Source of the DNA: Jannaschia pagri
Lineage (GTDB): Bacteria; Pseudomonadota; Alphaproteobacteria; Rhodobacterales; Rhodobacteraceae
Assembly: GCF_019655435.1 (NCBI RefSeq)
Contig: NZ_BPFH01000004.1
Location: 1 to 64,000 of the forward strand
DNA: 64,000 nucleotides
Direction: 5' to 3'
Below the pieces are notes generated by a model. That model worked only from the letters and a program-made list of their open reading frames with translations, was not told the origin of the DNA and did not search any database. Made by a program: the position numbers and the translations under genes. Below, one piece after another: positions 1 through 12,135 of this stretch (position 1 is its first letter; each line of letters starts with the position of its first letter).

Positions 1-939
1 CTCGTTTGGAGAACAGGCTAACTTCAAACCGCGGACCTTTCAGGGGAGCAGGTCATCGGTTCTCGGAGTTTTTCGACGGTGATGGGCCCCTCGATCTCTG
101 CAACCCCTTCGGTAAAGGGTGGTCTAGGCTGAACCACCAATCCGGTTTCCTCATCTTCCGTGCCGGGAACCGCATTGGTGTCGAGGGGCGGTTGCGATGC
201 GTGTTGTACCGGCGGATGAGTGACAACCATCGGATGCGGTTCAGGATGCCGCGTTGCCATCGGGTGAATGAGTCCCTGTGAAGAAACCAGTTCTTTAGCG
301 CGGTCTTCGAACACCTTCGCCCGGATACTCTGACCTTCGTGCTCCGCTCCCAAAGCTGCAAGTCGTGCATGCAGGTGGGCTTCGACTACCTGATACTCGT
401 GTTCGGAAGACCGGGGTTTCAATCCTGTGAAAGCCTCGAATTCGCTTACTATGGCTCTGCGAGATGCAGAAGAACGGAGGATCTCGACCTCCCTGGCGTA
501 GACGCTGACTGCGGCCTTCACTTCGTTGGAAGACCAGGTCGCATCGAGACGCGACGCTGGAAGGGCATCGCCAAGTCCGTCGGTCAGAAGGCTGGTCAAA
601 ACGACACGTTGGATAGGAACGGACATAGCCAGGGTGCCTTTCCGCTCCGACATCCGTTCCATCCGGGATTGCCGACGCAAGGTATCCAAAGCCTGCTTCA
701 GTCGCGCATCAAAGTAATGCGCGATCAGCTCTTCGGGGAGCGGGTCGATGACGAAAAGAAAGGCGTCCAGCATGGCTTCGAACTCTGTAATCAGCGTTCG
801 GGACCACGTATGCGCCGTTTTTTTCATCTGTCGTCCCCAGGGCGATACGCACAGGACGGATAGATGTGGATAACCCCGGAAAGCGCCGCCGAAAATGATA
901 GTGGCGGCCCTGGCGGTAGAGGTATGTTTGAGTTCGCAT
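1..939 (-). pseudogene. Broken tyrosine-recombinase (DUF6538-type N-terminus) gene, frameshifted and cut by the window edge
   Basis: The minus-strand start at 939 gives an N-terminus (MRTQTYLYRQGRHYHFRRR...) like the YRxGxxYxFRRR head of integrases used by alphaproteobacterial islands. This frame is lost after about 40 residues, at a run of seven A on the coding strand (plus 818-824). Reading six A instead of seven joins it smoothly (TDEKTAHTWSR) to a second frame that stays open down to a TGA at 24-26. That second frame carries the long helical linker region of such integrases. No catalytic R-H-R-Y core is visible before the window ends, and a further frame change near position 25 would be needed to continue. 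Either the gene is a decayed remnant of an older island at the same tRNA-Asn site, or the A7 run is a sequencing error. Family assignment comes from the N-terminal motif only. Confidence 0.55.
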
Positions 940-1088
940 GATGCCCTCCTGATGAGGGACACCGATGGGCTGACCTGATCACCCGAAGTGCGCGCGTTGT
1001 GACATCTGTGTGTCAGCAGAGCGCAGAAACTTCAAAAGGCGTTCGGAGCTAAATCCGAAAGACACACGTTTTCAGTAGCTTGAAGGGA

Positions 1089-1137
1089 TTTTGGCTCCGG
1101 CGGTAGGGATCGAACCTACGACCAATTGATTAACAGT
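1089..1137. repeat. attL: displaced tRNA-Asn 3' fragment
   Basis: These 49 bases are identical to 12058-12106. They start with TTTTGGCTCCGGCGGTAGGG and run through the T-arm into the anticodon loop of tRNA-Asn, then diverge from the real gene at 1138. No 5' half of a tRNA follows, so this copy is the displaced end created by integration. The integrase start codon is 173 bases inside. Confidence 0.93.
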
Positions 1138-1309
1138 TATGATTTTGGTCTCTTTCCGCTTTCTGCCCATACCCTCCAAAAGCCTCCCATACCCCTATAA
1201 ATAAAGTAAAATCAGCATCTTGTACCATGTTCGGTGCGACCCTATGTTTTCCCATAGGTTCACAAAACCTGCTTACTAACTGCTTACTTTTTTTGAGGGG
1301 CTGAGGGCC

Positions 1310-2497
1310 ATGGCCAAACTGACGGCACAAGGCGTGCGGGATATGCCGCTCACAACGGCGGGGCAGAAATTCGTCTGGGATGATGGCCAGCCCGGTCTGG
1401 GCGTCCGTATTGGGAGGGCCTCAAAGGCTTACATCGTGCAAAGCCGCGTAGGGGCCAAGACCCGCCGCGTGACGCTGGCCAAGACGGACCACCTAACCCT
1501 GAATGATGCCCGCAAGCTGGCAAAGAAGGCGCTGGCCGAAATGGCCGATGGCAAGGACCGCAACGCGCAACTCAGGCAGGACCGGGCGAAACTCATGACC
1601 CTCGGCCAAGCGGTAGACGGGTGGCTTTCCGAACGGTCGCACCGTGAGCGCACCGCCGTGACCTACCGGGCCACCATGGCCCGAGAATTTGGCGATTGGC
1701 TGAGTATGGAAATGCGCCGGATCACGCCAAAAGTGTTCCAAGCCCGTTTTCATGAGATCATGGCCCGCACTCCCGCCGGGGCCGCGCTGGCCGTGCGCAC
1801 TTTCAAGAGTTGCTGGAATTGGGCACGGGTTGACGTGACCGATGCAGAGGGAAACCCGCTCTTGCCCGAATGCCCCGCTGACATTGTGAAGCGCAAAAAG
1901 ATCATGCCCAAGCCAAAGCGCCGCCAGACATTCGTGAGTGACTGGAAAGAGTTTTTTGAGGCTTTGGACAACCTTGAAACCAATTCCAATCGCCACCCCG
2001 AGGCTGGGGAGAAATTCAAGGTATACGTCGAATTGCTGGCCCGCACTGGGTTGCGCATGACTGAGGCCGCATATTTGGAATGGGCCGATGTGGACCTTAA
2101 GGCCAAGACGCTCACCATTGTGGCCGAGAGGGCGAAAAACGGGGAAGCCATAACCCTGCCATTGGCTGAGCAAACCGTGAGGCTCTTAGAGGCTCAGAAA
2201 GAGCGCACCGGGGGCGAAACCTATGTCTGGGGGGCTTCGCCCTACGGCGACCCACGCAAGACGCTCACGGCCTTTCGTGAGGCTCTTGGCTGGCCTATCG
2301 GCTTCCATGATTTGCGCCGCAGCTTTTCAACGGTGGCAACCCGCCTTGATGTCCAACAGACGAAGCTGAAACGCTTGATGAACCATGCCACGGGCAGCGA
2401 CGTGACCGCCGGATACCAGATTTTGACTGACCCCGAGATGATGCGGGGGGCTACACAGGCCGTAAGTGACTACATGGATCAACAGAGGACGGCTTGA
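1310..2497 (+). CDS. int: Tyrosine-recombinase integrase of the tRNA-Asn island
   Basis: This 395-aa site-specific recombinase catalyses integration and excision between attL and attR. The N-terminus (about 1-80) matches the Arm-DNA-binding DUF4102-type domain found in P4-like integrases. A SAM-like core-binding domain spans roughly 95-190 and the catalytic domain roughly 205-385. The catalytic set is visible: R249 (ARTGLR), H333-x-x-R336 (FHDLRRSF), H359 (LMNHA) and nucleophile Y369 (TAGYQIL). The start is ATG 1310, after a purine-rich GAGGGGCTGAGG stretch. The gene is full length, sits just inside attL and reads into the element, as expected for an element-borne integrase. No excisionase other than the AlpA-like gene downstream is visible. 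Confidence 0.95.
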   Translation: MAKLTAQGVRDMPLTTAGQKFVWDDGQPGLGVRIGRASKAYIVQSRVGAKTRRVTLAKTDHLTLNDARKLAKKALAEMADGKDRNAQLRQDRAKLMTLGQAVDGWLSERSHRERTAVTYRATMAREFGDWLSMEMRRITPKVFQARFHEIMARTPAGAALAVRTFKSCWNWARVDVTDAEGNPLLPECPADIVKRKKIMPKPKRRQTFVSDWKEFFEALDNLETNSNRHPEAGEKFKVYVELLARTGLRMTEAAYLEWADVDLKAKTLTIVAERAKNGEAITLPLAEQTVRLLEAQKERTGGETYVWGASPYGDPRKTLTAFREALGWPIGFHDLRRSFSTVATRLDVQQTKLKRLMNHATGSDVTAGYQILTDPEMMRGATQAVSDYMDQQRTA

Positions 2498-2552
2498 AAC
2501 ATCGCCGCTAGCGGGCCATACTCAAAGCAGCGTCAGAACAAGGATGTTTGAT

Positions 2553-2572
2553 CGTCACCCGCTCAAGTGACG
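2553..2572. promoter_or_regulatory. Inverted repeat between int and the AlpA-like gene
   Basis: CGTCAC (2553-2558) and GTGACG (2567-2572) form a perfect 6-bp inverted repeat with an 8-bp spacer in the 142-bp gap between int and the AlpA-like gene. It could be an operator for the AlpA-like HTH protein. No clear -10/-35 pair was recognised, so the role is inference. Confidence 0.3.
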
Positions 2573-2639
2573 GGCAGCGCGAAACCCGCAACCCGGTGCG
2601 TCGATGAAAGGGACGTGCCAACATCCTTGGAGAACGCCA

Positions 2640-2867
2640 ATGCCAATCAAACTCAAAAAGCCCGCACCAATTGTGTCCGATATGCTCACGGTTGACCAAG
2701 CCGCGACCGTTCTAGGCGTCAGCCGCCGTTATCTGGACAAAGACCGATATGAGGCACGTGCCAACGGCACACCACCCAAAGTGCCTTTCTCCGTGCTGGG
2801 GCACCGCACCATTCGCTACAGCCGCACCGATTTGCTGGCATTCCTTGAAGCCAAGCGCATTGCGTGA
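2640..2867 (+). CDS. AlpA/excisionase-type helix-turn-helix protein
   Basis: This 75-aa basic protein has a MerR/AlpA-like fold: MLTVDQAATVLGVSRRYLDKD (about 15-35) is the HTH, followed by a beta-wing and a C-terminal segment ending RYSRTDLLAFLEAKR, the usual ending of helix_turn_helix_17 proteins. In PICIs the equivalent gene (alpA) turns on the island and assists excision. I choose ATG 2640 over the in-frame ATG 2604 because GGAGAA (2629-2634) lies 5 nt upstream. It follows int and precedes the replication gene, the usual control position in satellites. There is no CI-like repressor nearby, which supports an AlpA-driven rather than phage-like switch. Confidence 0.8.
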   Translation: MPIKLKKPAPIVSDMLTVDQAATVLGVSRRYLDKDRYEARANGTPPKVPFSVLGHRTIRYSRTDLLAFLEAKRIA

Positions 2868-2875
2868 GGTGACAC

Positions 2876-3118
2876 ATGAGCAAATGGCAAACACATGCCG
2901 AGATGTGCGGCATAAAGGCGGCTGAGCGTCTCTATGAAGTAGATCCTAGTGCCACCCGCGAAATACGCGACACAGACATGTGGGGCGCTGGGGTGGTTCT
3001 TCTGACGTTTCTCAGAGATCACCACGCGCCTGAGTATGAAATAGCCGAGGCAATGTCGATTATGCTCAGGGCATACGTGACGCGCTTTCAATCACTGAAA
3101 AGCGGGGGCGTCCCGTGA
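2876..3118 (+). CDS. Small hypothetical island protein
   Basis: This 80-aa protein starts at ATG 2876, eight bases after the AlpA-like gene, and its stop overlaps the GTG start of the next gene (GTGA), so it is probably translated from the same message. It is predicted to be helical, with a hydrophobic stretch near MWGAGVVLLTFL. No known motif, zinc site or HTH is visible. Position between the regulator and the replication initiator suggests a role in induction or replication, but the function is unknown. Confidence 0.6.
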   Translation: MSKWQTHAEMCGIKAAERLYEVDPSATREIRDTDMWGAGVVLLTFLRDHHAPEYEIAEAMSIMLRAYVTRFQSLKSGGVP

Positions 3119-3726
3119 CCTTTCTCAAATCAGCCAAAGCCAAGGCCGAACTGGCCAGCGATATAGCCAAGGATCACGCGGCCCAGACCGCTCAGGCGAA
3201 CTCGCCTATCCAGACCCGCAAAGACATTCGGGGCTTTTGGGTGCAGCACCCCAAGAGCCGAGATTTGTTTGGAGCGATCTACAAGACTTGGCGCAAGTCC
3301 AACGCGGTTCGTCCCGGCCATGCTGGGTATTGGGCGGCTTATCCCTATCCATGGTGGAGCGACCTTACGGGCATTGCCGTTGCAACGCTCAAGCGCCACC
3401 TAGATCGTCTGGAAAACCTCGGGCTGATAGAGCGTGAGCGCGGCAAGTTTGGGGGCAACAGGGTGCTGACCTTTATCCGGCCCACGATCCTCGGCCTAAG
3501 GTTATCCAACCCAAAGAGCCAAGACTGGCAGCACCTTGGGCACGACCCCAACACCCCGCCAAACGGGCCAGCCCAAGGCGTGAAGCCGAACACTGCGCAC
3601 AAGGTTGCTGGCCCCCAGTCTACCGATGAAAAGCCTCTCACCATGGCTGAGCTATTGGCGATGGAAGAAGCCGAAAAGCCTCTGACGTTGGCAGAGGTGC
3701 AGGCAATCTTGGCCGAGGATGATTGA
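3115..3726 (+). CDS. Winged-helix replication-initiator-like protein
   Basis: This 203-aa protein starts at GTG 3115. Its middle (about 40-125) reads as a winged helix: GYWAAYPYPWWSDLTGIAVATLKRHLDRLENLGLIERERGKFGGNRVLTF contains the typical 'attempt, recognise, wing' pattern of RepA/DnaD-type N-domains. The C-terminus is low-complexity and holds two similar segments (EKPLTMAELLAMEE and EKPLTLAEVQAILAE), which may be short interaction repeats. Four tandem 12-bp iterons begin 50 bases downstream, which fits an initiator that binds its own origin. No primase, helicase or AAA+ domain is present, so host replication proteins would be needed. A purely transcriptional role is the alternative. Confidence 0.6.
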   Translation: MTFLKSAKAKAELASDIAKDHAAQTAQANSPIQTRKDIRGFWVQHPKSRDLFGAIYKTWRKSNAVRPGHAGYWAAYPYPWWSDLTGIAVATLKRHLDRLENLGLIERERGKFGGNRVLTFIRPTILGLRLSNPKSQDWQHLGHDPNTPPNGPAQGVKPNTAHKVAGPQSTDEKPLTMAELLAMEEAEKPLTLAEVQAILAEDD

Positions 3727-3753
3727 AGGAATGGGCGGGAATGAAACGAATTG

Positions 3754-3880
3754 GACTAGCTCATTCTCGGCCCGAAATGGCCTAATCAGTGAGCTAGTCG
3801 ATGAGCTAGTCAGTGAGCTAATCCATACACAGAAATACTCATTACATTCGTATTTCTATCCCATCTCTCTAAAGAGAGAT
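3754..3880. other. Candidate iteron-type replication origin of the island
   Basis: Four 12-bp units lie head to tail: 3777-3788 ATGGCCTAATCA (degenerate), 3789-3800 GTGAGCTAGTCG, 3801-3812 ATGAGCTAGTCA and 3813-3824 GTGAGCTAATCC (consensus RTGAGCTARTCN). An inverted copy, GACTAGCTCAT, is at 3754-3764. An AT-rich stretch follows with two perfect hairpins: AGAAATAC/GTATTTCT (3831-3838/3850-3857) and ATCTCTCT/AGAGAGAT (3863-3870/3873-3880). Iterons beside an AT-rich unwinding zone, directly after an initiator-like gene, are the textbook form of a satellite or plasmid origin. An ORF of 72 aa (3719-3937) crosses this region and may be a by-product. Confidence 0.65.
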
Positions 3881-3937
3881 GATCCGAAGAACCCCATCCC
3901 CTTTGTCAAGGTGACGGGTGGAGATTGGGCTATCTGA

Positions 3938-4259
3938 ATAGATCACCCCGGAATACCCTCCACCCCCCCATAGCCCCCCGCCTCTCAAGGCCGGAATTGA
4001 CAGGCCGAATGAGCCACCGTATTTTGTGATTGTTGTTGCCCGTCGGCCCTACATGGTCGGCGCTCGCACTTAGCGGGCGGGCACCACAAGCGAATGAAAC
4101 CCACGCTTGAGGTGCGCCCGTGCAAACCCTGCACAAGATCACATTGCCCCAGACCCCTAGGGGACCCCTGCCCGCCGAAAGGGGGAGGCCCGCATCTATC
4201 GGAGGGGGCGGAGCGGAGGCACTCGAGCGGGTGACGGTTTTCGAGCGGGGGGCGTCCGC
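3938..4259. other. 322-base non-coding gap before terminase; candidate packaging (cos/pac) region
   Basis: No convincing gene fills this gap. It is GC-rich and contains the perfect palindrome CCCCTAGGGG (4154-4163) and a direct repeat CGAGCGGG (4224-4231 and 4242-4249). A 46-codon ORF (4094-4234) rich in cysteine is open but has no clear ribosome-binding site. In cos phages and in PICIs the packaging site lies just upstream of the terminase genes, so this is the best place for it. That role is inferred from position. Confidence 0.35.
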
Positions 4260-5789
4260 TTGATTACGATCCGCCGCAAACCCAAGCTGGAACCTGTTGA
4301 CGCGCTGGCGAACTGGCTGGCGCGTGAGTTTACCATTCCGGCTGGTATCTCTCGCGGCGAACCTTTCGTGCTGCATGACTTCCAGCGTGAGATTGTGGCG
4401 GCGTATCTCAGCCAAGATTATGACGGCCCCACGTTTCGGACCTGCATCTTTTCCACCCCGCGCAAGCTGGGCAAGTCCACCCTGCTAGGCGCGATCCTTC
4501 TGGGTCTCATGTGCCCGGATAGCCCCATCCACATTCCCCACTTTTGCGGCGCTATCGCGGCCCCAACCGAAAAACACACGGGCTACATTGCTGCCGCGAT
4601 GTTCGCCCTTCTGGAAACGGCGGGGCGTGAGGGGGAGTTGCACAAGCGGGTAGACCCCAAGCCGGGGCGGCTACTCATGGGCAATGGCGTTTGCCACCTC
4701 AGCACCGGGAACATGAAACAAGGCCACGGTGCTGACCTTGACCTAGCGGTGATTGACGAAACGGGCCTTATCTCGGCTGGGCAAGGGGAACTCATAAACG
4801 CCTTCTACGATGCCCTTGCCGCCAAGGATGGCCAGTTGATCCTCACGGGCACCCGTGGCGACAGCCCCGAGTATAACGAACTCATTTCCCGCCCTGACAA
4901 GCGCACCCATGTGACCCTCTGGGGCGCTGATCTGAATGACGATGCCAGCGACCCGGCGGTTTGGGAAGCGGCAAACCCCGCCCTGGGCACGATCAAATCC
5001 CGCCGTTTCATGCAGGATGCGCACGACAAGGCCGAGCAAGGCGGCTCGCTCACCTCTTTCAAGGCGTGGCACCTCAACATGCCGCTCAGCCCTAGCCGCC
5101 AGTTGCTGGTGGAGTATGGCCAGCTACAACGGGCTTACGATGTGAACGCCAAACCTATTCCGGGTGAGCAGTGCTTTGTTGGGCTGGACCTCGGGGGCAG
5201 CGCGGCCATGACCGCCGCCGTGATCGTCTATGCCGAAAGCGGCGTGATCCGCCCGATTGCCGCGTTTCCGGGTGAGGGGGAGTTGGACCTTGCGCAACGG
5301 GGCAAACGCGATGGCGTGGGCAACCTTTATGTGAGCCTAGCCGGGACGGGCGAACTCTTTGAGACAAGTGGCCAAGTCACCGATGTGGCCGAGTTTCTGG
5401 CGCGGCTGAGGGAAGAAATCGGGGATCACCCCGTGCAATCCATTTCTGGCGACCGTTACCGGGATGCCGAGTTTCGCACTGCCATGGCACGGGCCAAGAT
5501 TGATTGGCCAGTTGTGACCCGTGGCACCGGGCCGAAAGACGGCGATAACGACATTCGGGCAACCCGCCGCATGTTCCTGAGCGGCAAGGCCAAGATGCAG
5601 CGCAGTCTTTTGATTGAGGCCGCCGTTGCCGAGGCCGATGTGAAGGTTTCCGCTACCGGGGCCTGCCAACTCGACAAGTCGCACCGCAATGCCCGCATTG
5701 ACGTTGCTCAGGCCCTCACGCTGGCCTGTAGCGCCTACGTCTCGGCCATGGACGCACCTCAGCCGGAATATGAGGTGCAGCTATGGTGA
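4260..5789 (+). CDS. terL: Phage terminase large subunit (packaging ATPase/nuclease)
   Basis: This 509-aa motor protein loads DNA into the capsid. The ATPase domain shows a variant Walker A at 65-74 (STPRKLGKST, the 'RK.GKT/S' form of HK97/P335-type terminases) and Walker B at 161-168 (DLAVIDET). The C-terminal RNase-H-like nuclease is seen from D310 (CFVGLDLGG) with the late acidic motif near DVAQALTLACSA. Full length for the family. The only start before the conserved region is TTG 4260; the frame is open further upstream but has no ATG/GTG. No small terminase was recognised next to it, which is odd for a cos or pac phage; the HNH gene follows with a 7-base overlap. A satellite-encoded TerL makes packaging independent of helper capsid. 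Confidence 0.92.
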   Translation: MITIRRKPKLEPVDALANWLAREFTIPAGISRGEPFVLHDFQREIVAAYLSQDYDGPTFRTCIFSTPRKLGKSTLLGAILLGLMCPDSPIHIPHFCGAIAAPTEKHTGYIAAAMFALLETAGREGELHKRVDPKPGRLLMGNGVCHLSTGNMKQGHGADLDLAVIDETGLISAGQGELINAFYDALAAKDGQLILTGTRGDSPEYNELISRPDKRTHVTLWGADLNDDASDPAVWEAANPALGTIKSRRFMQDAHDKAEQGGSLTSFKAWHLNMPLSPSRQLLVEYGQLQRAYDVNAKPIPGEQCFVGLDLGGSAAMTAAVIVYAESGVIRPIAAFPGEGELDLAQRGKRDGVGNLYVSLAGTGELFETSGQVTDVAEFLARLREEIGDHPVQSISGDRYRDAEFRTAMARAKIDWPVVTRGTGPKDGDNDIRATRRMFLSGKAKMQRSLLIEAAVAEADVKVSATGACQLDKSHRNARIDVAQALTLACSAYVSAMDAPQPEYEVQLW

Positions 5790-6160
5790 GGCGTCAGGAT
5801 CGTTCCACAATCGACACGCGGGAATGGAAGCGCAGCATTCGGCCCGCCATTGCGCACCGGGCGAATTACCGTTGCGAGTGTTGCGGGAAATTCTGCGGAA
5901 TGCACGGGCACGTTGACCATATCGTGCCCCGCTCAGCATGTGCCGAGGCGCTGATTGACCCCCGCGACAAGGCCAACCTGCAATACCTCTGCCCCGCCTG
6001 CCACAACGCCAAATCCGCCAAGGAAAAGTGGAGCGGCCACAAGCGCCGTGACCGCACGGGCGAAATCCGCCGTTCGCACGTGCCGGGGCGTGAGGCGTTC
6101 CAGTCCGCCCTTGCGAGTGCAGTGGATTGCAAATTCTCGGGGCTATCGGGGGGTAAATGA
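5783..6160 (+). CDS. HNH endonuclease associated with DNA packaging
   Basis: This 125-aa protein has the HNH beta-beta-alpha-metal fold: Zn ligands C31/C34 (CECC) and C70/C73 (CPAC), the catalytic core HGHVDH at 41-46, N65, and H74 in CPACHNAK. Established knowledge: HNH proteins encoded beside terminases (HK97 gp74 type) work with TerL in cos cleavage. Its ATG lies inside the end of terL and its stop abuts the next start, so it is part of the head operon. It may replace or assist the missing small terminase in making ends; this is inference. Confidence 0.88.
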   Translation: MVRRQDRSTIDTREWKRSIRPAIAHRANYRCECCGKFCGMHGHVDHIVPRSACAEALIDPRDKANLQYLCPACHNAKSAKEKWSGHKRRDRTGEIRRSHVPGREAFQSALASAVDCKFSGLSGGK

Positions 6161-6655
6161 ATGAATAGGACAATTCGGGAGACAATTCTGGAAACCCTGC
6201 ATCTCTCTTTGGCTGACATTTCAGGGGGTGTCCCGGCGTCTGACCCGTATCCGTTTTCTATCTCAGAGGTGGTGCGCGGCCCCTTGCCTCCGACAAGCCC
6301 CAAACGGCTCACGGCGGGGCTGGTGCCGATGAAAGAGAACAAGACGCAAGGCACGTCCTTTGTGGAGTGTTTCTTGGAGGTGAGCGTTGATTTTCGCTAT
6401 CGCGCTCAGCCGGGGGAGGTGCCCGCCACGATCATTGAAACCGTGGCCGGGATGATCCAGCGCCGCCTTCTAGTGGATACGACAGTGAAAGGGTTGGCCG
6501 TTGATCTGTATGACGCTGGCAATGTCGTGGACCTCGATCACCCCGAGGATTTGACAGCCGAGGGCAGCGTTTTCTTTGTCGTGCGGTATCGCCACGACCT
6601 GAACGACCCCCGCACATATCTCGGCCAAGCGGCCCCAGCACCGGGGGCCACATGA
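6161..6655 (+). CDS. Putative neck or tail-terminator-like connector protein
   Basis: This 164-aa protein begins directly after the HNH stop (ATG 6161). Its central part (SFVECFLEVSVDFRYRAQPGE...ETVAGMIQRRLL...LDHPEDLTAEGSVFFVVRYRHDLNDPRTY) resembles the ring-forming minor tail/terminator proteins that sit between head and tail: a central helix pair, then a beta-sheet ending in a 'vRYRhd' strand. Assignment is by fold pattern and by position next to a gp10-like protein. In a satellite without tail genes, such a protein would make heads compatible with helper tails. Confidence 0.5.
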   Translation: MNRTIRETILETLHLSLADISGGVPASDPYPFSISEVVRGPLPPTSPKRLTAGLVPMKENKTQGTSFVECFLEVSVDFRYRAQPGEVPATIIETVAGMIQRRLLVDTTVKGLAVDLYDAGNVVDLDHPEDLTAEGSVFFVVRYRHDLNDPRTYLGQAAPAPGAT

Positions 6656-7302
6656 CTGACACGCACGACGTTGGCCTTTCCGTAAGCTACGGCAATCGGC
6701 GGTATCAGGACGCCCGCCGGGGCTTGGATGCTCTGGCCGCGACCCTCGGCAAGAACGTGGATGACTTTGCCCACGTGGTGGCCCGTGAAATGCGGGTTTT
6801 CATCGCACGGGAAACCGACAAGCTGGCCGCACGGCATTCCGGCACCACGACAACTGACAAGGCCCTTGCCAAGCGCACCGGGCGGCTGGTGCGTGAGCTA
6901 CAGCACGGCAGGGTGGTGCATGAGGCCGCAAAGGTGGCCGATGTGTATGGCGAAGTCACCTTGCCGGGTGAGTATCGTATTCAGGAATACGGCGGCACGA
7001 TCACGCCCCGAGAGGGCCAATATCTGTTTGTGCCATTGCCCGCCGCGCTCAAGGCCGATGGAAGCCCGAAAAAGCTCAATCCTCGGCAATGGCAACACAC
7101 CTTAATTGCTGAAAGCCGCAAGGGAAACCTTCTGCTTTTCCAACGCTTAGGGCGGAAGGTTACACCGCTCTACGCCCTCAAACCTCAGGTGCGGGTGCGT
7201 CCCCGGCTTGGGTTTGTCGCGCAAATGAAACGGGGCTTCCCCGAGTTTGCCGACCGTGCGCTTGAGGCGCTTTTGGACGCGCTCACGAAAGACATAACCT
7301 GA
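6652..7302 (+). CDS. HK97 gp10-like head-tail joining protein
   Basis: This 216-aa protein starts at ATG 6652 overlapping the previous stop (ATGA). It has a long N-terminal helix (GLDALAATLGKNVDDFAHVVAREMRVFIARETDKLAAR) followed by a beta-rich region with YRIQEYGGTITPREGQYLFVPLP, a pattern common in gp10/neck-type proteins ('e.GG.i....k.l.iP'), then RPRLGFVAQMKRGFPEFADRALEALLDAL at the C-terminus. Together with its neighbour it forms a probable neck module placed before, not after, the capsid gene. No tail gene follows, so its partner is probably a helper phage protein. Confidence 0.6.
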   Translation: MTDTHDVGLSVSYGNRRYQDARRGLDALAATLGKNVDDFAHVVAREMRVFIARETDKLAARHSGTTTTDKALAKRTGRLVRELQHGRVVHEAAKVADVYGEVTLPGEYRIQEYGGTITPREGQYLFVPLPAALKADGSPKKLNPRQWQHTLIAESRKGNLLLFQRLGRKVTPLYALKPQVRVRPRLGFVAQMKRGFPEFADRALEALLDALTKDIT

Positions 7303-7311
7303 GAGGCTACC

Positions 7312-8574
7312 ATGTTGAAATCGCAAGAAATCCAACTGGCGCAAAGCAAGCGCCGTGAGAAAATGGCCGAAATCCAGAAGGCCGATGAAATCACCGACGA
7401 CGCCCGCACCGAATTGCGGTCCCTGACCTCGGCATACGAAGGGGCCGAGGTGGAGTTGCGGGCCGCGCTTCTGGTGGAGGGGGCCGAACGTGACAAGATC
7501 AAAGAGCCTGACCGGGCCGAGAGCGATTTTGGCCGGGAATGCCGCTCGTTCAATCTCTCGGGCATGGTGGCAAGCCTGACCGAGGGCAAGCCGCTGACGG
7601 GACGTGAGGCCGAGGTTTCCGCCGAACTGGAAAACCGTCACGGGGATGGCCAGAAGGGGGTGCGCTTCCCATGGGAGAGCCTCTTGGAAACCCGTGCCGA
7701 TGTGGCAACGGATGCCAGCACCAGCGTGAGCGGCAATCTGGCGTCTCACCCCACGATGAACGCCCTTGAGCGTTTCTTTGAGGCCAGCGCGGCACAACGC
7801 TTTGGCGTCTCGGCTCTGCAAGTCACGGGTGCCCCCAGCTTCCCCGAGATCACCGGGGGCACGGGCCTGTCATGGGTGGCCGAGGGTGCCGGGGCCGATG
7901 CCGCCGCAATCTCCACAACCGCCGTCAGCCCCGCCATTCACACGGCAACGGGCCGCTACCTTCTGACCCGCCAAGCCATTCGCCAGAACTCGGCCCTTGA
8001 GGCGATCTTGCGCCGTGACCTTTCCGAGGTGCTGCGTGAGGGCATGGATTTGGCCGTGTTGCAAGGCACCGGGGCAGATGAGCAACCGGCGGGCTTTGAA
8101 ACCGTGCTGACCGGGGGCCGCACAGCGGCGCTGGATGACGTGGCCAGTTTTTCCGAGTTTCTGTTGCGGGCAACCGAAATTCAGGAAACGGCCAAGCTGA
8201 GCGACCCCTCGGGCGTCCGCATCGCGGGTGCGCCGATTGTCCACCAGACCCTTGCCGACACTTTGGTGAGCGGCACCGCCGTTTCGGAACTGGACCGCCT
8301 CAAGGGGGCGGGTTTCGGCATGATGTGGTCCAGCCAAGTCAGCACCCGAGGGGCGCGTGACGGCACCGATAAAGGGGCGTCCAGCGTCTACTTTGGGGCC
8401 GGGGCGAACAACGCATTCGTGCCCACGTGGGGAAGCCCGGAATTGCTGGTGGACCCCTACAGCGAAAGCAAGACGGGCAAGGTGGCCCTCACCATGTTCG
8501 CTTTCGTTGATGTGCTGATCCAGCGCACCGCCACCCACTATTTCAAGCTGACGGGGGTGCAAGACCGCGCATGA
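7312..8574 (+). CDS. HK97-fold major capsid protein
   Basis: This 420-aa protein builds the icosahedral shell. Residues about 1-100 are a charged, coiled-coil-like delta domain (scaffold), removed by the protease in HK97-type phages. The capsid domain follows from around 120, with typical features: an N-arm/E-loop region, the spine helix (ARRDLSEVLREGMDLAVLQGTG, about 235-260, with the usual 'l.GtG...pp.G' ending), and a C-terminal P-domain ending FVDVLIQRTATHYFKL. Length is normal. ATG 7312 lies 10 bases after the gp10-like gene. The gene is intact, so the element should make its own heads. It is followed by an ATGA overlap with the protease gene. Confidence 0.9.
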   Translation: MLKSQEIQLAQSKRREKMAEIQKADEITDDARTELRSLTSAYEGAEVELRAALLVEGAERDKIKEPDRAESDFGRECRSFNLSGMVASLTEGKPLTGREAEVSAELENRHGDGQKGVRFPWESLLETRADVATDASTSVSGNLASHPTMNALERFFEASAAQRFGVSALQVTGAPSFPEITGGTGLSWVAEGAGADAAAISTTAVSPAIHTATGRYLLTRQAIRQNSALEAILRRDLSEVLREGMDLAVLQGTGADEQPAGFETVLTGGRTAALDDVASFSEFLLRATEIQETAKLSDPSGVRIAGAPIVHQTLADTLVSGTAVSELDRLKGAGFGMMWSSQVSTRGARDGTDKGASSVYFGAGANNAFVPTWGSPELLVDPYSESKTGKVALTMFAFVDVLIQRTATHYFKLTGVQDRA

Positions 8575-9164
8575 GTGTCCGCCGCATGATCTGGGAAGCT
8601 GACGGCCTTGAGGTGCGTCAGCTAGACAAGCGCCCGGTGATTGCGGGCCGCTTCCCATACAACTCACTGGCCGTCCTCTCTGATCGGGGGACGGTCCGCA
8701 AAGAAACCATCATGCCGGGGGCTTTCAGCTTCACCCTTGGCGACCCCAGCCGAGAGGTGAACCTGCTTTTCGGCCATTCGTTTGACCGTCCGCTTGCCTC
8801 ACGATCCTCCGGCACCCTTGAGTTAAAGGATACTGAGCGTTTCCTTGATTTTGTGGCCACCATTCCCGAGGGGGCAGACCGCGCAAGCCATGTGGTGGAC
8901 GCCCTGGCATTGATCGGCTCAGGGCTTGCCCGAGGTATCAGCCCCGGTTTCCGGGTGCCGCCGTCTGACGTGGTGCCGGGGGCGGAAAAACTGGTGCCTG
9001 AGCCGGGAAATCCGAGCGTCAAAATCCGGCAACTTTGGGCGCTCTTGCTCTTTGAACTCTCGATTGTGACGCGGCCCGCCTATCAGGACAGTGAGGCCGA
9101 ACTCAGGGCACTGACGGCAAGCGCGAACGATCCAGCCAAGCGGGAAAGGATCGTGTTGCCATGA
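8571..9164 (+). CDS. HK97 family prohead protease
   Basis: This 197-aa serine protease matures the prohead by cutting capsid delta domains. The herpesvirus-type assemblin fold is indicated by NLLFGHSFDRPLAS (H69) and the nucleophile region GLARGISPGFRV (S124), with ELSIVTRPAYQDSEA at the end of the domain. Starts inside the capsid stop codon (ATGA) and ends inside the start of the next gene, so the genes are translationally coupled. Unlike HK97 and the Rhodobacter GTA (portal, protease, capsid), here the protease follows the capsid. Confidence 0.92.
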   Translation: MSVRRMIWEADGLEVRQLDKRPVIAGRFPYNSLAVLSDRGTVRKETIMPGAFSFTLGDPSREVNLLFGHSFDRPLASRSSGTLELKDTERFLDFVATIPEGADRASHVVDALALIGSGLARGISPGFRVPPSDVVPGAEKLVPEPGNPSVKIRQLWALLLFELSIVTRPAYQDSEAELRALTASANDPAKRERIVLP

Positions 9165-9724
9165 TTACGCTTTTGGAAACCTCATTCACGCTGGGGGATG
9201 ACCCGGCAACCTCGCTTCTGGCCTCTGAGGTGGCCTTTGAGGCCGATGGGACCGAAACTGAGGCCACGGCCATGCTCACGGCCTCTTGGGCCATGGTGGA
9301 GGCGTTCACGGGCAAGACATACCGGGAAATGACCGCTGGCAAGGTGATCGTCAAAGCCGATACGCCCATCACGTTCACATGGTCCCGCTATCCGTTCCCC
9401 GTGACGATTGGCGTCAGCATCTATCAGGGGGGATCATGGGTAAGCCTTTCGGCCCCCTATGTGGCCGAGGTGGGCATGATTGACCTTGAGCCGTTCCAAC
9501 TCACCCGCCTGACCCAAACGGGCACCGTGGCCGGGGCACCCGTCACGGCCAACGTGACAAGGGCCGTCCACCAGCTGGCGCTTTATCAGCTCATGCAAGG
9601 CCCCAGCCGCCGGGAATACAGCTCACAATCCTCTGGGGATTTTTCGTTCACCCGTGAAAGCCTGATGCCCGTATTTCGCGGCTCTGGGGCGGGTGCCTTG
9701 CTTGCATCGGAGGTGCGGGGATGA
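9161..9724 (+). CDS. Head-tail connector (gp6-like adaptor)
   Basis: This 187-aa protein starts at ATG 9161 (ATGA overlap). The opening (ITLLETSFTLGDDPATSLLASEVAFEADGTETEATAMLTASWAMVEAFTGKTYREMTAGKV) matches the helical start of gp6/YqbG-like adaptors, with the usual 'A...ie.yTgr.f' motif, followed by a beta-strand pair (ITFTWSRYPFPVTIGVSIY) and a C-terminal helix. Such adaptors form the ring below the portal. The gene overlaps the portal start by four bases. Confidence 0.75.
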   Translation: MITLLETSFTLGDDPATSLLASEVAFEADGTETEATAMLTASWAMVEAFTGKTYREMTAGKVIVKADTPITFTWSRYPFPVTIGVSIYQGGSWVSLSAPYVAEVGMIDLEPFQLTRLTQTGTVAGAPVTANVTRAVHQLALYQLMQGPSRREYSSQSSGDFSFTRESLMPVFRGSGAGALLASEVRG

Positions 9725-10731
9725 TGTGGCCATTCAAGCGAAAGTCCGAGATTGAACAACGCGCCTCTTTGGGGGTGACGCTGGAATACATGGATCACCG
9801 TCGCCGGGGCCTTCTTACTGACGGCAAGGTGCCCCTGAGCGCGACCGTGGGCACGGCTCTGCATTTCTGGACCTCGGGCTTTGCCATGCTGGAGCTTGCC
9901 CCCGTGCCTGTTGATCCTGCCACGCTGGCCGCAATGGGGCGTGACCTTCTGTTGAAGGGGGAAACGTGCTGGCATATCCGGGCCGATGGCTCAGCCCTCA
10001 AGCTGGATCACGTGGCCTATTGGGATGAATTGGCCTCGGGCCGCTTTCACCTTCACATTGCGCACCCGCATGAAACTGAAACCCGCAAGGCGCTTGCGGG
10101 TGAGGTGTTGCGGCTGACGATCAATGCCGACCCCGCCACCCCATGGCAGGGGCGTTCCCCGTTCAAGATGATGGGCCTCAGCCCCGCGCTTCTGGCCGAG
10201 ATTGAAAAGGCCGTGAGCAACGCCACCAGCTATACGGGCAAGGGGCTTCTTCCCATGCCGTCCACCATCCCCGAGGATCAACAACAAAAGGCGGCTACGG
10301 GCCTGCAATCGTCCTCTTTGGCCGTGGTGTCCAGCAAGGCCGATTTTGCGCACCAGACCGGGGGCCATGCTTCTGAGTTTCGGCGGGTGGACCTGACGCC
10401 AGACCTTGGCAAGGCTGACCTCAACACGTTCACGGCTGACCTGCATAATCGCCTCTTGGCAGGGTGTGGCGTTCCCCCGGCACTGGTAACGGGCAACGGC
10501 AATGCCGGGGCCATGCGGGAAGGGTATCGGCTCTTTGCCCTGCAAACGATCTTGCCGCTTGCCCGCCAATGCCTGCCGGAACTGACGCGAAAGATTGGCG
10601 TCCAGACTGTCAGCATTGACCAGATGATGAGTGCCGATGTGGCGGGCCGTGCCCGTGCCGTGGGTGTCCTGACAGGGGCCGGGGTGCCCCTTGATAAGGC
10701 CATGCGCCTCGTGGGGTGGGACCATGAGTAG
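9721..10731 (+). CDS. Phage portal protein
   Basis: This 336-aa protein is the dodecameric DNA gate at the head vertex. Typical features are the N-terminal MWPFKRKSE, the wing region, and the clip/stem part DLGKADLNTFTADLHNRLLAGCGVPPALVTGNGNAGAMREGYRLFALQTILPLARQ, which matches the HK97 portal core ('...ia...gvPp.llg....n..e...f....i.P...'). Slightly shorter than usual (about 400 aa), with a reduced C-terminus. It follows the capsid, protease and connector genes, an inverted order compared with most tailed phages. ATG 9721 or 9724 are both possible; the overlap with the connector stop favours coupling. Confidence 0.85.
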   Translation: MMWPFKRKSEIEQRASLGVTLEYMDHRRRGLLTDGKVPLSATVGTALHFWTSGFAMLELAPVPVDPATLAAMGRDLLLKGETCWHIRADGSALKLDHVAYWDELASGRFHLHIAHPHETETRKALAGEVLRLTINADPATPWQGRSPFKMMGLSPALLAEIEKAVSNATSYTGKGLLPMPSTIPEDQQQKAATGLQSSSLAVVSSKADFAHQTGGHASEFRRVDLTPDLGKADLNTFTADLHNRLLAGCGVPPALVTGNGNAGAMREGYRLFALQTILPLARQCLPELTRKIGVQTVSIDQMMSADVAGRARAVGVLTGAGVPLDKAMRLVGWDHE

Positions 10732-11113
10732 GCTCAGCCCCCTACAGACCGCCAAGAGGGCGGCGAAATCCAACCCCGCGTTCAAACGGGCGCTTGTCTA
10801 CATCACAGCAACCGATAGCGGGGTGCCCGTCTATGATGCCGCCGGGGAACTGCAATACGACCGGGCCGAGGATACCTTGGGCTATGTGGACAAGAGCAAG
10901 GAAACCGTCCTGACCCTCTCGGCCACATATCAGGGCAGTCACCTTGTCACCGTCCTGAGTGAGGTGGCCCCGAACGGTGCGGCTCTGATCCTGATTGACG
11001 GGGTGTTCTACGAGATTGTCACCGTCCACTCGGCTAACGTGCTGGCCACGCTTGTGACGTATGACTGTAAGTCCCTCGGCCCGAATGACGCACCGGTGAT
11101 CCGCAATGCCTAA
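10724..11113 (+). CDS. Putative head closure/joining protein
   Basis: This protein of 129 aa (from ATG 10724, which overlaps the portal stop by 8 bases) is mainly beta: YITATDSGVPVYDAAGELQYD... TLSATYQGSHLVTVLSEVAPNGAALILIDGVFYEIVTVHSANVLATLVTYDCKSL. A small beta-barrel with a 'i.i.g..yeI..v' strand pair is the form of head-completion (stopper) proteins such as SPP1 gp16 or HK97 gp7. The position behind the portal supports this. The call rests on secondary structure pattern and context only. Confidence 0.5.
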   Translation: MSRLSPLQTAKRAAKSNPAFKRALVYITATDSGVPVYDAAGELQYDRAEDTLGYVDKSKETVLTLSATYQGSHLVTVLSEVAPNGAALILIDGVFYEIVTVHSANVLATLVTYDCKSLGPNDAPVIRNA

Positions 11114-11372
11114 ACCGATGCCAGCACCGCCCCCGATGCCCCGAGAGGGGGCAACCGCCGATGAGATTGGCCAGACCCTTGCCGCGTTGCTGGAATGGAT
11201 TGTGAAGGCCCGCCTAGCCGATTTGCTGGACGCGGGCCTTACCCATGCCGATGTGTTCAAGCTGGTGCGCGTGGCCGATGATTACCGCAAGGGGGAGTTT
11301 GGTCCCGAGACCTTGGCGACGATCCACGACCTTGCCCCCAAGCTAGACCGGATGAGCGTAGAATTGCGTTAG
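11106..11372 (+). CDS. Hypothetical last gene of the head operon
   Basis: This 88-aa protein starts with a proline-rich leader (MPKPMPAPPPMPREG) and continues as helices (ADEIGQTLAALLEWIVKARLADLLDAGLTHADVFKLVRVADDYRKGEFGPETLATIHDLAPKLDRM). It overlaps the upstream gene by 8 bases, so it belongs to the head operon. I do not recognise the family. A small terminase-like DNA-binding or chaperone role is conceivable because no TerS is visible elsewhere, but no HTH can be demonstrated. Confidence 0.6.
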   Translation: MPKPMPAPPPMPREGATADEIGQTLAALLEWIVKARLADLLDAGLTHADVFKLVRVADDYRKGEFGPETLATIHDLAPKLDRMSVELR

Positions 11373-11384
11373 CACTTTAGGAAG

Positions 11385-11912
11385 CTACTCGGGCCAGTGC
11401 CGGTCTTCTAACTTCGCTTTTTTGGTGTAGTGGGCGCGATTGTATAAAGCCGAGACGAGGCTCGTTGTAACCATGCCAAAACGCTGCTTTGGGTCATCGG
11501 CCCGCGAAGGGTGAGCCTTGTCAAGCGCGTCAAGCGCCGACATGCCAGTTTTGAGTGCAGCGGCCCAACTGCGTATCTTTTGATCTTCAAACGAGACCAG
11601 AACGCTATGCGCAAATGCGTTTCGTATTTTGCGCACAGCTTCTATGTCCTGATACTCTGATCCCGAGATTAGGCCGAGTGCGCGGCTTGCGCTCGACTTT
11701 GCGGAGAAGGTCGAAAGTGGAGCGTTGGGACCATCAAAGAGGCTTTTGCTCGCAGCGCCCTCTAAAAGAAAGCCACGCAAGACCTCTTCCAGCATTTCTT
11801 CGATGAGTGACGCTGCAACTAAGGCTCGCCCACGGTCTGTCTCGCTGTTGGAAGCGTCAAGAAATGTCCTCAGCCGTTGATAATAGGGATCGTCAAATTT
11901 CATGGATGTCAC
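11385..11912 (-). CDS. MtlR (mannitol repressor)-family protein, island cargo
   Basis: This 175-aa all-helical protein matches the MtlR family: DRGRALVAASLIEEMLEEVLRGFLLEG (about 23-49) and FSAKSSASRALGLISGSEYQDIEAVRKIRNAFAHS (about 70-104), the two diagnostic blocks including the 'iR..FAH' motif. E. coli MtlR represses the mannitol operon, but many homologues lie far from sugar genes, and here there are none. It is on the opposite strand from the structural operon and lies between the last head gene and attR, the usual place for satellite cargo. A defence, toxin-like or helper-interference role is inference. The 'R..FAH' helix pair also resembles HEPN-type folds, which supports looking for RNase-related activity. 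Confidence 0.75.
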   Translation of the reverse strand: MTSMKFDDPYYQRLRTFLDASNSETDRGRALVAASLIEEMLEEVLRGFLLEGAASKSLFDGPNAPLSTFSAKSSASRALGLISGSEYQDIEAVRKIRNAFAHSVLVSFEDQKIRSWAAALKTGMSALDALDKAHPSRADDPKQRFGMVTTSLVSALYNRAHYTKKAKLEDRHWPE

Positions 11913-12057
11913 ACCGACCTGCGGGATTGCTGCGTTCTATTAGCAAGCAAAGCGACCGGCTGTGAGGGCTGACTTGCTTACTATGTGCTTACTAACGCCA
12001 GAACCCCCCTATGACGCCTCTCTGAGGTGTCGCGCAAATCTCTGATTTACTTGGGGT

Positions 12058-12106
12058 TTTTGGCTCCGGCGGTAGGGATCGAACCTACGACCAATTGATT
12101 AACAGT
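12058..12106. repeat. attR within the tRNA-Asn gene
   Basis: These 49 bases are identical to attL (1089-1137). They cover the 3' end, T-arm and part of the anticodon arm of the functional tRNA-Asn, so integration leaves an intact gene. The identity stops at 12107, inside the anticodon stem, which is the expected crossover limit for a tyrosine integrase that uses the anticodon stem-loop. Confidence 0.93.
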
Positions 12107-12135
12107 CAACTGCTCTACCGCTGAGCTACGCCGGA
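12061..12135 (-). tRNA. tRNA-Asn(GTT)
   Basis: This 75-nt gene has encoded CCA (TGG at 12061-12063 on plus). The acceptor stem TCCGGCG pairs with CGCCGGA, with discriminator G. The D-arm (TAGCTCAGCGGTAGAGCA), an anticodon loop CTGTTAA with anticodon GTT (plus AAC 12101-12103) and the T-arm GTTCGATCC are all present. It is the integration target of the element; its 3' part is attR. Confidence 0.97.

Follow-up and report, generated by a model that had tools for sequence, protein, structure and literature searches.

Here, we analyse a 64,000-nucleotide stretch of Jannaschia pagri DNA (contig NZ_BPFH01000004.1, positions 1 to 64,000; hereafter, the window), in which positions 1089–12106 probably hold an integrated capsid-forming phage satellite. 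It is best read as an element that works like a capsid-forming phage-inducible chromosomal island (cf-PICI) but is of independent origin and differs in its gene order, smaller genome and fuller neck. Our verdict is an independent variant that is widespread in Rhodobacteraceae, with a neck that extends, in the sub-clade of the window element, as far as the terminator. An earlier note on this DNA had offered either an alphaproteobacterial member of the cf-PICIs or an independent lineage. Our results support the second, because grouping with the capsid of EcCIEDL933 (locus L074, 30330–44761), which we take to be the cf-PICI prototype, is rejected, the gene order differs, and more than 20 relatives at tRNA or tmRNA sites have the same head-without-tail content.

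An exact 49-nt direct repeat (1089–1137 and 12058–12106), extending to 53 nt with one mismatch, bounds the element and covers the 3' end of a tRNA-Asn gene (12061–12135, - strand), as had been proposed. Together with an integrase, these attachment (att) repeats give the element the site-specific integration of a cf-PICI, and the 11.0 kb between them hold open genes without stops. The expectation that the element would be precisely absent from a related genome was borne out in congener G013, where the site is empty: window positions 51–1137 align into the tRNA at 90.9% with one small gap, and the two flanks, once joined, match along 2,031 bp at 78%. The left flanks of 20 genomes of the genus (own included) form several groups, mutually dissimilar at the sensitivity used, a pattern resembling that of an integration hot spot. 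Left of attL, window positions 24–962 are 91% identical to the G013 left flank; the frames there, without a Pfam match, resemble a broken DUF6538-type integrase, and the segment is perhaps the remnant of an older element at the same tRNA. In another genome (G004, contig C8, 178500–198900), copies of 47–49 nt of the tRNA-Asn end lie ~13 and ~19 kb from the tRNA, accompanied by integrase-like frames, forming stacked islands of other kinds. A half element also lies ~4 kb from tRNA-Asn in L013 (10001–13005) and L061, its portal 98% and its capsid C-terminus 100% identical to those of the window, suggesting recent loss or interruption. The features of the window element are as follows (aa, amino acids).

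1089–1137, no strand: attL, 49 bp repeating the 3' end of tRNA-Asn
1310–2497, + strand: tyrosine integrase, 395 aa (PF00589, E = 3e-15; phrog_1, E = 3e-41)
2604–2867, + strand: AlpA-like helix-turn-helix protein, 87 aa, candidate activator or excisionase (HTH_17, E = 3e-7; phrog_66, E = 3e-5)
2876–3118, + strand: 80-aa protein conserved in loci L014–L016
3115–3726, + strand: replication-initiator-like (Rep/O-like) winged helix-turn-helix protein, 203 aa (phrog_270, E = 2e-7; relatives in L016 and L017)
3777–3824, + strand: 12-bp iterons downstream of the rep gene, a candidate origin, recurring in L016 and L017
4161–4174, + strand: conserved box GGGACCCCTGCCCG, candidate packaging (cos/pac) site
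4260–5789, + strand: terminase large subunit (TerL), HK97 type, 509 aa (PF20441, E = 2e-17; phrog_9, E = 2e-51)
5783–6160, + strand: HNH endonuclease, 125 aa (PF01844, phrog_333)
6161–6655, + strand: 164-aa neck protein with a predicted tail-terminator fold (AlphaFold and Foldseek)
6652–7302, + strand: 216-aa neck protein, DUF6441 relative (PF20039)
7312–8574, + strand: major capsid protein, HK97 fold, 420 aa (PF05065, E = 2e-12; phrog_617, E = 1e-19)
8571–9164, + strand: prohead protease, 197 aa (PF04586, E = 6e-17)
9161–9724, + strand: putative adaptor/connector, 187 aa, from its place and a weak match
9721–10731, + strand: portal, 336 aa (PF04860, E = 3e-7, below the curated cut-off)
10691–11113, + strand: 140-aa stopper/head-closure-like protein (AlphaFold and Foldseek)
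11106–11372, + strand: 88-aa conserved protein
11385–11912, - strand: 175-aa accessory protein adjoining attR (MtlR/DUF4145-like below cut-off; phrog_22031, E = 5e-23)
12058–12106, no strand: attR, within tRNA-Asn

Profile scans agreed with the earlier note that the integrase, AlpA-like protein, initiator-like gene with iterons, terL, HNH, capsid, protease and portal genes are present and open, and, as it had said of CI, gave no repressor match above the cut-off for the window element. An AlpA-like regulator adjoining the integrase is a cf-PICI feature, and one stands beside the integrase here (itself 93% identical to that of L014 and 70% to that of L012); capsid, protease, portal and connector genes of its own are likewise present, as in a cf-PICI. 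The neck proteins claimed for the region before the capsid are there, with the 164-aa terminator-fold protein and the 216-aa DUF6441 relative, although the connector is weak: phrog_442 (head-tail adaptor) matches 2 of 12 members of the 187-aa family (best E = 0.011). PF20039 matches 6 of 9 members of the 216-aa family, the window protein not being among those matched. The model of the 164-aa protein (mean pLDDT 64) gave Foldseek matches at TM ~0.4–0.6, among them the Pa193 neck (E = 5e-5), T5 p142 (3e-4), lambda gpU (4e-4) and the R4C terminator (5e-3), and phrog_4204 (tail terminator) matches the protein at E = 0.013. The model of the 140-aa protein (mean pLDDT 76) matched neck proteins, among them those of SaPI1, SPP1 (gp16) and a gene transfer agent (GTA), with a best E of 2e-3. 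Neck profiles found nothing credible among solved structures, where capsid and portal had one weak match each. Contrary to what had been thought, the portal is not the last gene, since the 140-aa and 88-aa genes follow it.

Tube, tape-measure, baseplate and lysis genes were not recognised in the window element, so that the earlier claim that tail and lysis genes are lacking stands for these, but not for the one protein with a tail-terminator fold. The 20 relatives bounded by att repeats contain 107 non-core open reading frames (ORFs) of at least 100 aa, 103 of which were scanned against PHROGs, leaving out an integrase, two AAA_25 proteins and a Prim-Pol. The scan matched 57 families, and the 25 inspected concern replication, head closure, adaptors or unknown functions, with no tail family among them; seven proteins taken as controls, from a tailed prophage and the host GTA, did match families for tail, baseplate and terminator. 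When ten large ORFs were scanned one by one, their matches, if any, were to replication or portal families or to one of unknown function, and again not to tail. In a comparison of limited reach, 22 tail proteins from R4C, HK97, CRP-821, Mano and the GTA matched none of the 116 loci that hold relatives of the element. Satellites scanned in this way show none of the tube, tape-measure and baseplate genes of a tailed prophage. Given head genes of its own without recognisable tail-shaft genes, the element probably borrows tails, taking them from another virus; cf-PICIs combine small capsids of their own with helper tails and depend on a helper for transfer.

The structural genes are under purifying selection. 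Compared with L014, L016, L017 and L006, the genes for TerL, HNH, capsid, protease, portal and neck gave dN/dS values of 0.04–0.33; against L058, those of them found there gave 0.18–0.31, with synonymous change near saturation except against L014 and one stop each in the alignments of the L017 164-aa gene and the L058 HNH gene. No frameshift was found in the window capsid, portal or terL, and no tailed prophage of the same capsid clade was seen, the PHROG scan covering the 20 att-bounded elements and loci beyond them being checked with the 22 reference proteins only; the earlier note had named either as grounds for dropping a satellite.

Relatives are common in Rhodobacteraceae. The genus, family and class searches used one genome per species, and part of the matches were mapped. 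Capsid matches at E ≤ 1e-3 occur in 59 of 394 family genomes and terL matches in 66 of 394; some of the weak capsid matches lie in tailed prophages (L171, L172). At E ≤ 1e-25, 40 of 43 capsid matches (in 39 genomes) have terL within 4 kb and 41 of 44 terL matches have a capsid within that distance; 37 of 394 genomes (own included) pair a related capsid and terminase within 4 kb, a count that took in 57 of the 83 listed terL matches. Among 385 genomes sampled across the class there were 10 matches; seven, mostly weak ones, fell outside the family, and two of the seven were mapped, L253 having the same module beside tRNA-Met and L254 being of a third kind. A scan of named genomes added 8 loci (including Pseudotabrizicola, Cypionkella, Tateyamaria and Pelagimonas) and a viral-contig scan 12, none of these 12 circular. 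Of the named loci, that of Pseudotabrizicola alkalilacus DJC has a capsid gene interrupted by a stop, and that of Cypionkella aquatica NBRC 111766 a truncated one. A profile scan found at least 473 relatives among 600 stretches, the best 80 of which were taken further: 29 of the 80 lie on contigs 9.5–12.5 kb long, and the longest contigs have 34,339 bases (L078, 20,959 seen; satellite and second integrase) and 21,531 bases (L077, 14,292 seen; satellite, then an integrase-like frame).

A repeat of the tRNA or tmRNA 3' end was found in 19 of 26 loci bearing such a gene; the seven without it (L007, L011, L013, L018, L025, L061 and L071) include some that are short or truncated. L060 was also att-bounded, as were 3/3 new loci tested later, with L011 and L071 staying without a repeat. 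The 20 att-bounded elements use eight tRNA kinds and tmRNA and measure 9,722–11,147 bp (mean 10,554, SD 430); three more measure 10,232, 9,738 and 10,661 or 10,882 bp. All 20 have terL and capsid; clustering identified a portal in 19 of them, and a phrog_12 match identified that of the twentieth. Protease was clustered in 15/20 and HNH in 14/20, with a greedy choice of ORFs by which, we think, the remaining genes were overlooked. Two arrangements occur, with the integrase far from the tRNA or adjoining it. Tandem insertions are also seen: two satellites each in L009 (one close-tier, one distant-tier) and L090, and a satellite with a second integrase in L060/L078.

In a capsid tree of 59 rows, 46 of them satellite rows chosen from ~109 matching ORFs, 45/46 satellite capsids form one clade (100/100), with L056 apart; a quick tree divides the clade into two deep halves. 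L254, L258 and L259 resemble L056 in gene content, and these four form the third kind of element, which looks tailless, has portals like that of HK97 and sits at tRNA-Arg or tRNA-Asp (no tRNA was found in L254). Forcing EcCIEDL933 into the satellite clade costs 57.8 log units (approximately unbiased test, P = 0.0034), by which membership of its capsid clade is rejected; the tree has long branches, the test shares the weaknesses of the model, and the comparison consists of EcCIEDL933 and two distant capsid relatives of unverified cf-PICI status, Gram-positive clades lying outside it. Neither profile search nor hhalign detected a relation of the satellite capsid to EcCIEDL933 or the host GTA. 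The nearest phage capsids by profile are those of Mano (4e-42), CRP-821 (1e-41) and R4C (2e-25), with hhalign giving 2e-19 for CRP-821 and 3e-10 for R4C, and the terL profile is nearer HK97 TerL (3e-104) than that of EcCIEDL933 (4e-45). Mano (Achromobacter), CRP-821 and R4C (Roseobacter group) are complete tailed phages with capsid proteins of 629–974 aa and portal before capsid. The host GTA (L146) likewise has an HK97-fold head cluster, but with tail genes, a portal–protease–capsid order and no detectable capsid or neck sequence relation to the element, which itself has an integrase and att sites and no tail; a GTA origin was therefore rejected.

EcCIEDL933 resembles the window element in having an integrase and small helix-turn-helix protein at one end, genes of its own for capsid, protease, portal, closure, connector, HNH and TerL, a capsid gene that precedes the portal gene, and no annotated tail gene. 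Its order is capsid–protease–portal–closure–connector–HNH–TerS–TerL, in contrast to TerL–HNH–terminator–216-aa protein–capsid–protease–adaptor–portal–stopper in the window. Since capsid also precedes portal in this E. coli cf-PICI, what stands out against that family, in the order claimed as unusual, is the place of the terminase. EcCIEDL933 further differs in a gene span of ~14.4 kb (11.0 kb for the window element), a P27 small terminase subunit (none recognised in the window element), and a DUF927 protein where the window has a Rep/O-like protein with iterons. According to PMC10803314, cf-PICIs average ~14 kb, compared with 10,554 ± 430 bp for the 20 elements, and occur in Enterobacteriaceae, Pasteurella, Morganellaceae and Gram-positive groups, including Lactobacilli, Enterococci, Bacillaceae and Streptococci, so that the earlier description of them as gammaproteobacterial was too narrow. 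In other studies, cf-PICI capsids fall into three clades (PMC11389934), and some cf-PICIs carry putative tape-measure genes (PMC12987554). The cf-PISP TG54 of Vibrio crassostreae, as described in PMC13230959, shares head genes, HNH, terminases and the lack of a tail, but is episomal, carries plasmid genes and has a capsid that groups with gammaproteobacterial cf-PICIs. PICI, P4-like, PLE and PICMI satellites are similarly small and helper-dependent (the PICMI model being integrase, AlpA and primase) but use helper capsids, whereas the window element carries its own. We found no report of an alphaproteobacterial cf-PICI in the literature searched, which mostly excluded subscription papers.

The box GGGRACCCTGYCCG, 99 nt upstream of terL in the window, is a putative packaging site. 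Derived from six loci and then sought at up to one mismatch elsewhere, it occurs in 9 of a further 18 close-tier loci, in each case on the terL strand and 81–1,177 nt upstream of terL (shuffled control: mean 0.9/18, maximum 3, in 40 rounds), and in none of 10 distant-tier elements; L056 has one match outside its element. In the proposed life cycle, AlpA and the integrase would excise the element on helper infection or induction, and Rep would start replication at the iterons (3777–3824), which might act as the origin. TerL with HNH would cut just upstream of terL, at the conserved box, and the cut DNA would fill a small HK97-fold head of the element's own, the capacity of which may set the near-constant length of 10.5 kb. 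Adaptor, stopper and, in this sub-clade, terminator would complete the neck; the head would then take a foreign tail and exit by helper lysis.

The helper is likeliest a phage from outside or one unseen. Within the host genome, PF05065 marks the window element and the GTA, PF17289 the GTA only, and PF03354 nothing; as the last missed even the element's own TerL, other prophages may have been missed. The GTA cluster lies beyond the window (G000, contig C4, ~68.9–82.5 kb; L146 4908–18457), with open frames for terminase, portal, protease, capsid, neck, tail tube, tape measure and hub. It would be an unlikely extension of the main reading that, within a large and independently evolved set of such satellites in Rhodobacteraceae, some complete their neck up to the tail terminator and can thereby attach to bare tail tubes, including, in certain hosts, the tubes of the resident GTA, which would make them satellites of a GTA.

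Several points weigh against a capsid-forming satellite with borrowed tails. The family searches of the host genome show no helper, only a GTA, and are insensitive. Of the PHROG families matched, 32/57 were not among the 25 inspected, and the 22 tail references missed three of six comparison loci (L255–L257), so that they do not cover all tails and have limited reach; one comparison locus that they did match is the GTA from which part of the query set came. L257, left out of the counts, is another kind of element: at 6524–10435, a weakly related terL (E = 6e-13) adjoins a 764-aa frame with a weak tape-measure match that was not recovered at E ≤ 1e-5, an integrase stands beside tRNA-Arg on the same stretch, and no capsid of the satellite clade matched. 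The fold models for the 164-aa and 140-aa proteins are of modest confidence, and a terminase small subunit was not recognised among the ORFs scanned, with HNH and TerL present. Finally, some relatives are damaged, with stops at the start of the L008 capsid and in the L017 164-aa gene (L017 3256–3747) and truncation in L011 and L013/L061.

Such stops and truncations fit the remnant of a tailed prophage that has shed its genes for tail and lysis and is undergoing domestication or decay. The Rhodobacteraceae prophage survey of PMC8224337 likewise reports a taller size peak at 10–15 kb, which is missing from its high- and medium-quality subset, and ascribes the short regions to domestication. We nevertheless consider a remnant quite improbable: the same core genes recur within 9.7–11.1 kb at numerous tRNA sites and across two deep capsid clades, and L171 and L172, tailed prophages from this family, have heads of a different lineage. 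It is the low dN/dS, the constancy of size and, with intact att sites, the empty site in G013 that led us to set decay aside.

To a satellite that draws its tails from the host's own GTA instead of a phage, we give similarly little credence. In the host, a further HK97-type capsid (PF05065) was found only in the GTA, ~57–70 kb downstream, as was the sole Terminase_6C terminase, and the tube, tape-measure and hub frames of this GTA are open. However, neck proteins of the element and the GTA show no sequence link (hhalign E 0.016 or worse), the terminator fold is nearer those of T5, lambda and R4C than that of the GTA, and the searches that single out the GTA, with PF03354 missing the element's own TerL, do not cover all phage types.

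A small tail-independent virus, whose closed-neck heads leave and enter cells otherwise, for instance in vesicles, would account for the lack of a recognised tail gene in the scanned members and for a neck completed to the terminator in one sub-clade. This is very unlikely, as portal, stopper and terminator serve to attach a tail, and no lysis or receptor-binding gene was recognised in the window element. Defence cargo was set aside, as the window 175-aa protein had no PADLOC match and one of 10 accessory proteins matched weakly (CARF type, L008, E = 9e-4). That the head module has been domesticated to serve against phages or as a decoy, without travelling in particles, is hardly credible, for although purifying selection alone, that CARF-type match and the defence genes reported for many satellites in PMC11389934 would fit, the element retains its integrase, att sites, iterons, terminase and HNH, and the window accessory protein is without a defence match.

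A capsid-forming satellite of independent descent would represent a further origin of such elements, in a family without a report of them in the literature searched, and in which, at 37/394 genomes, they are common. The narrow 10.5-kb size offers a test of a head-capacity constraint. GTAs make up 22/173 prophages in the survey of PMC8224337, and some of the non-GTA prophages counted there, part of the 10–15 kb peak, may be intact satellites. With both tailed phages and GTAs, Rhodobacteraceae are suited to asking whose tails these satellites use.

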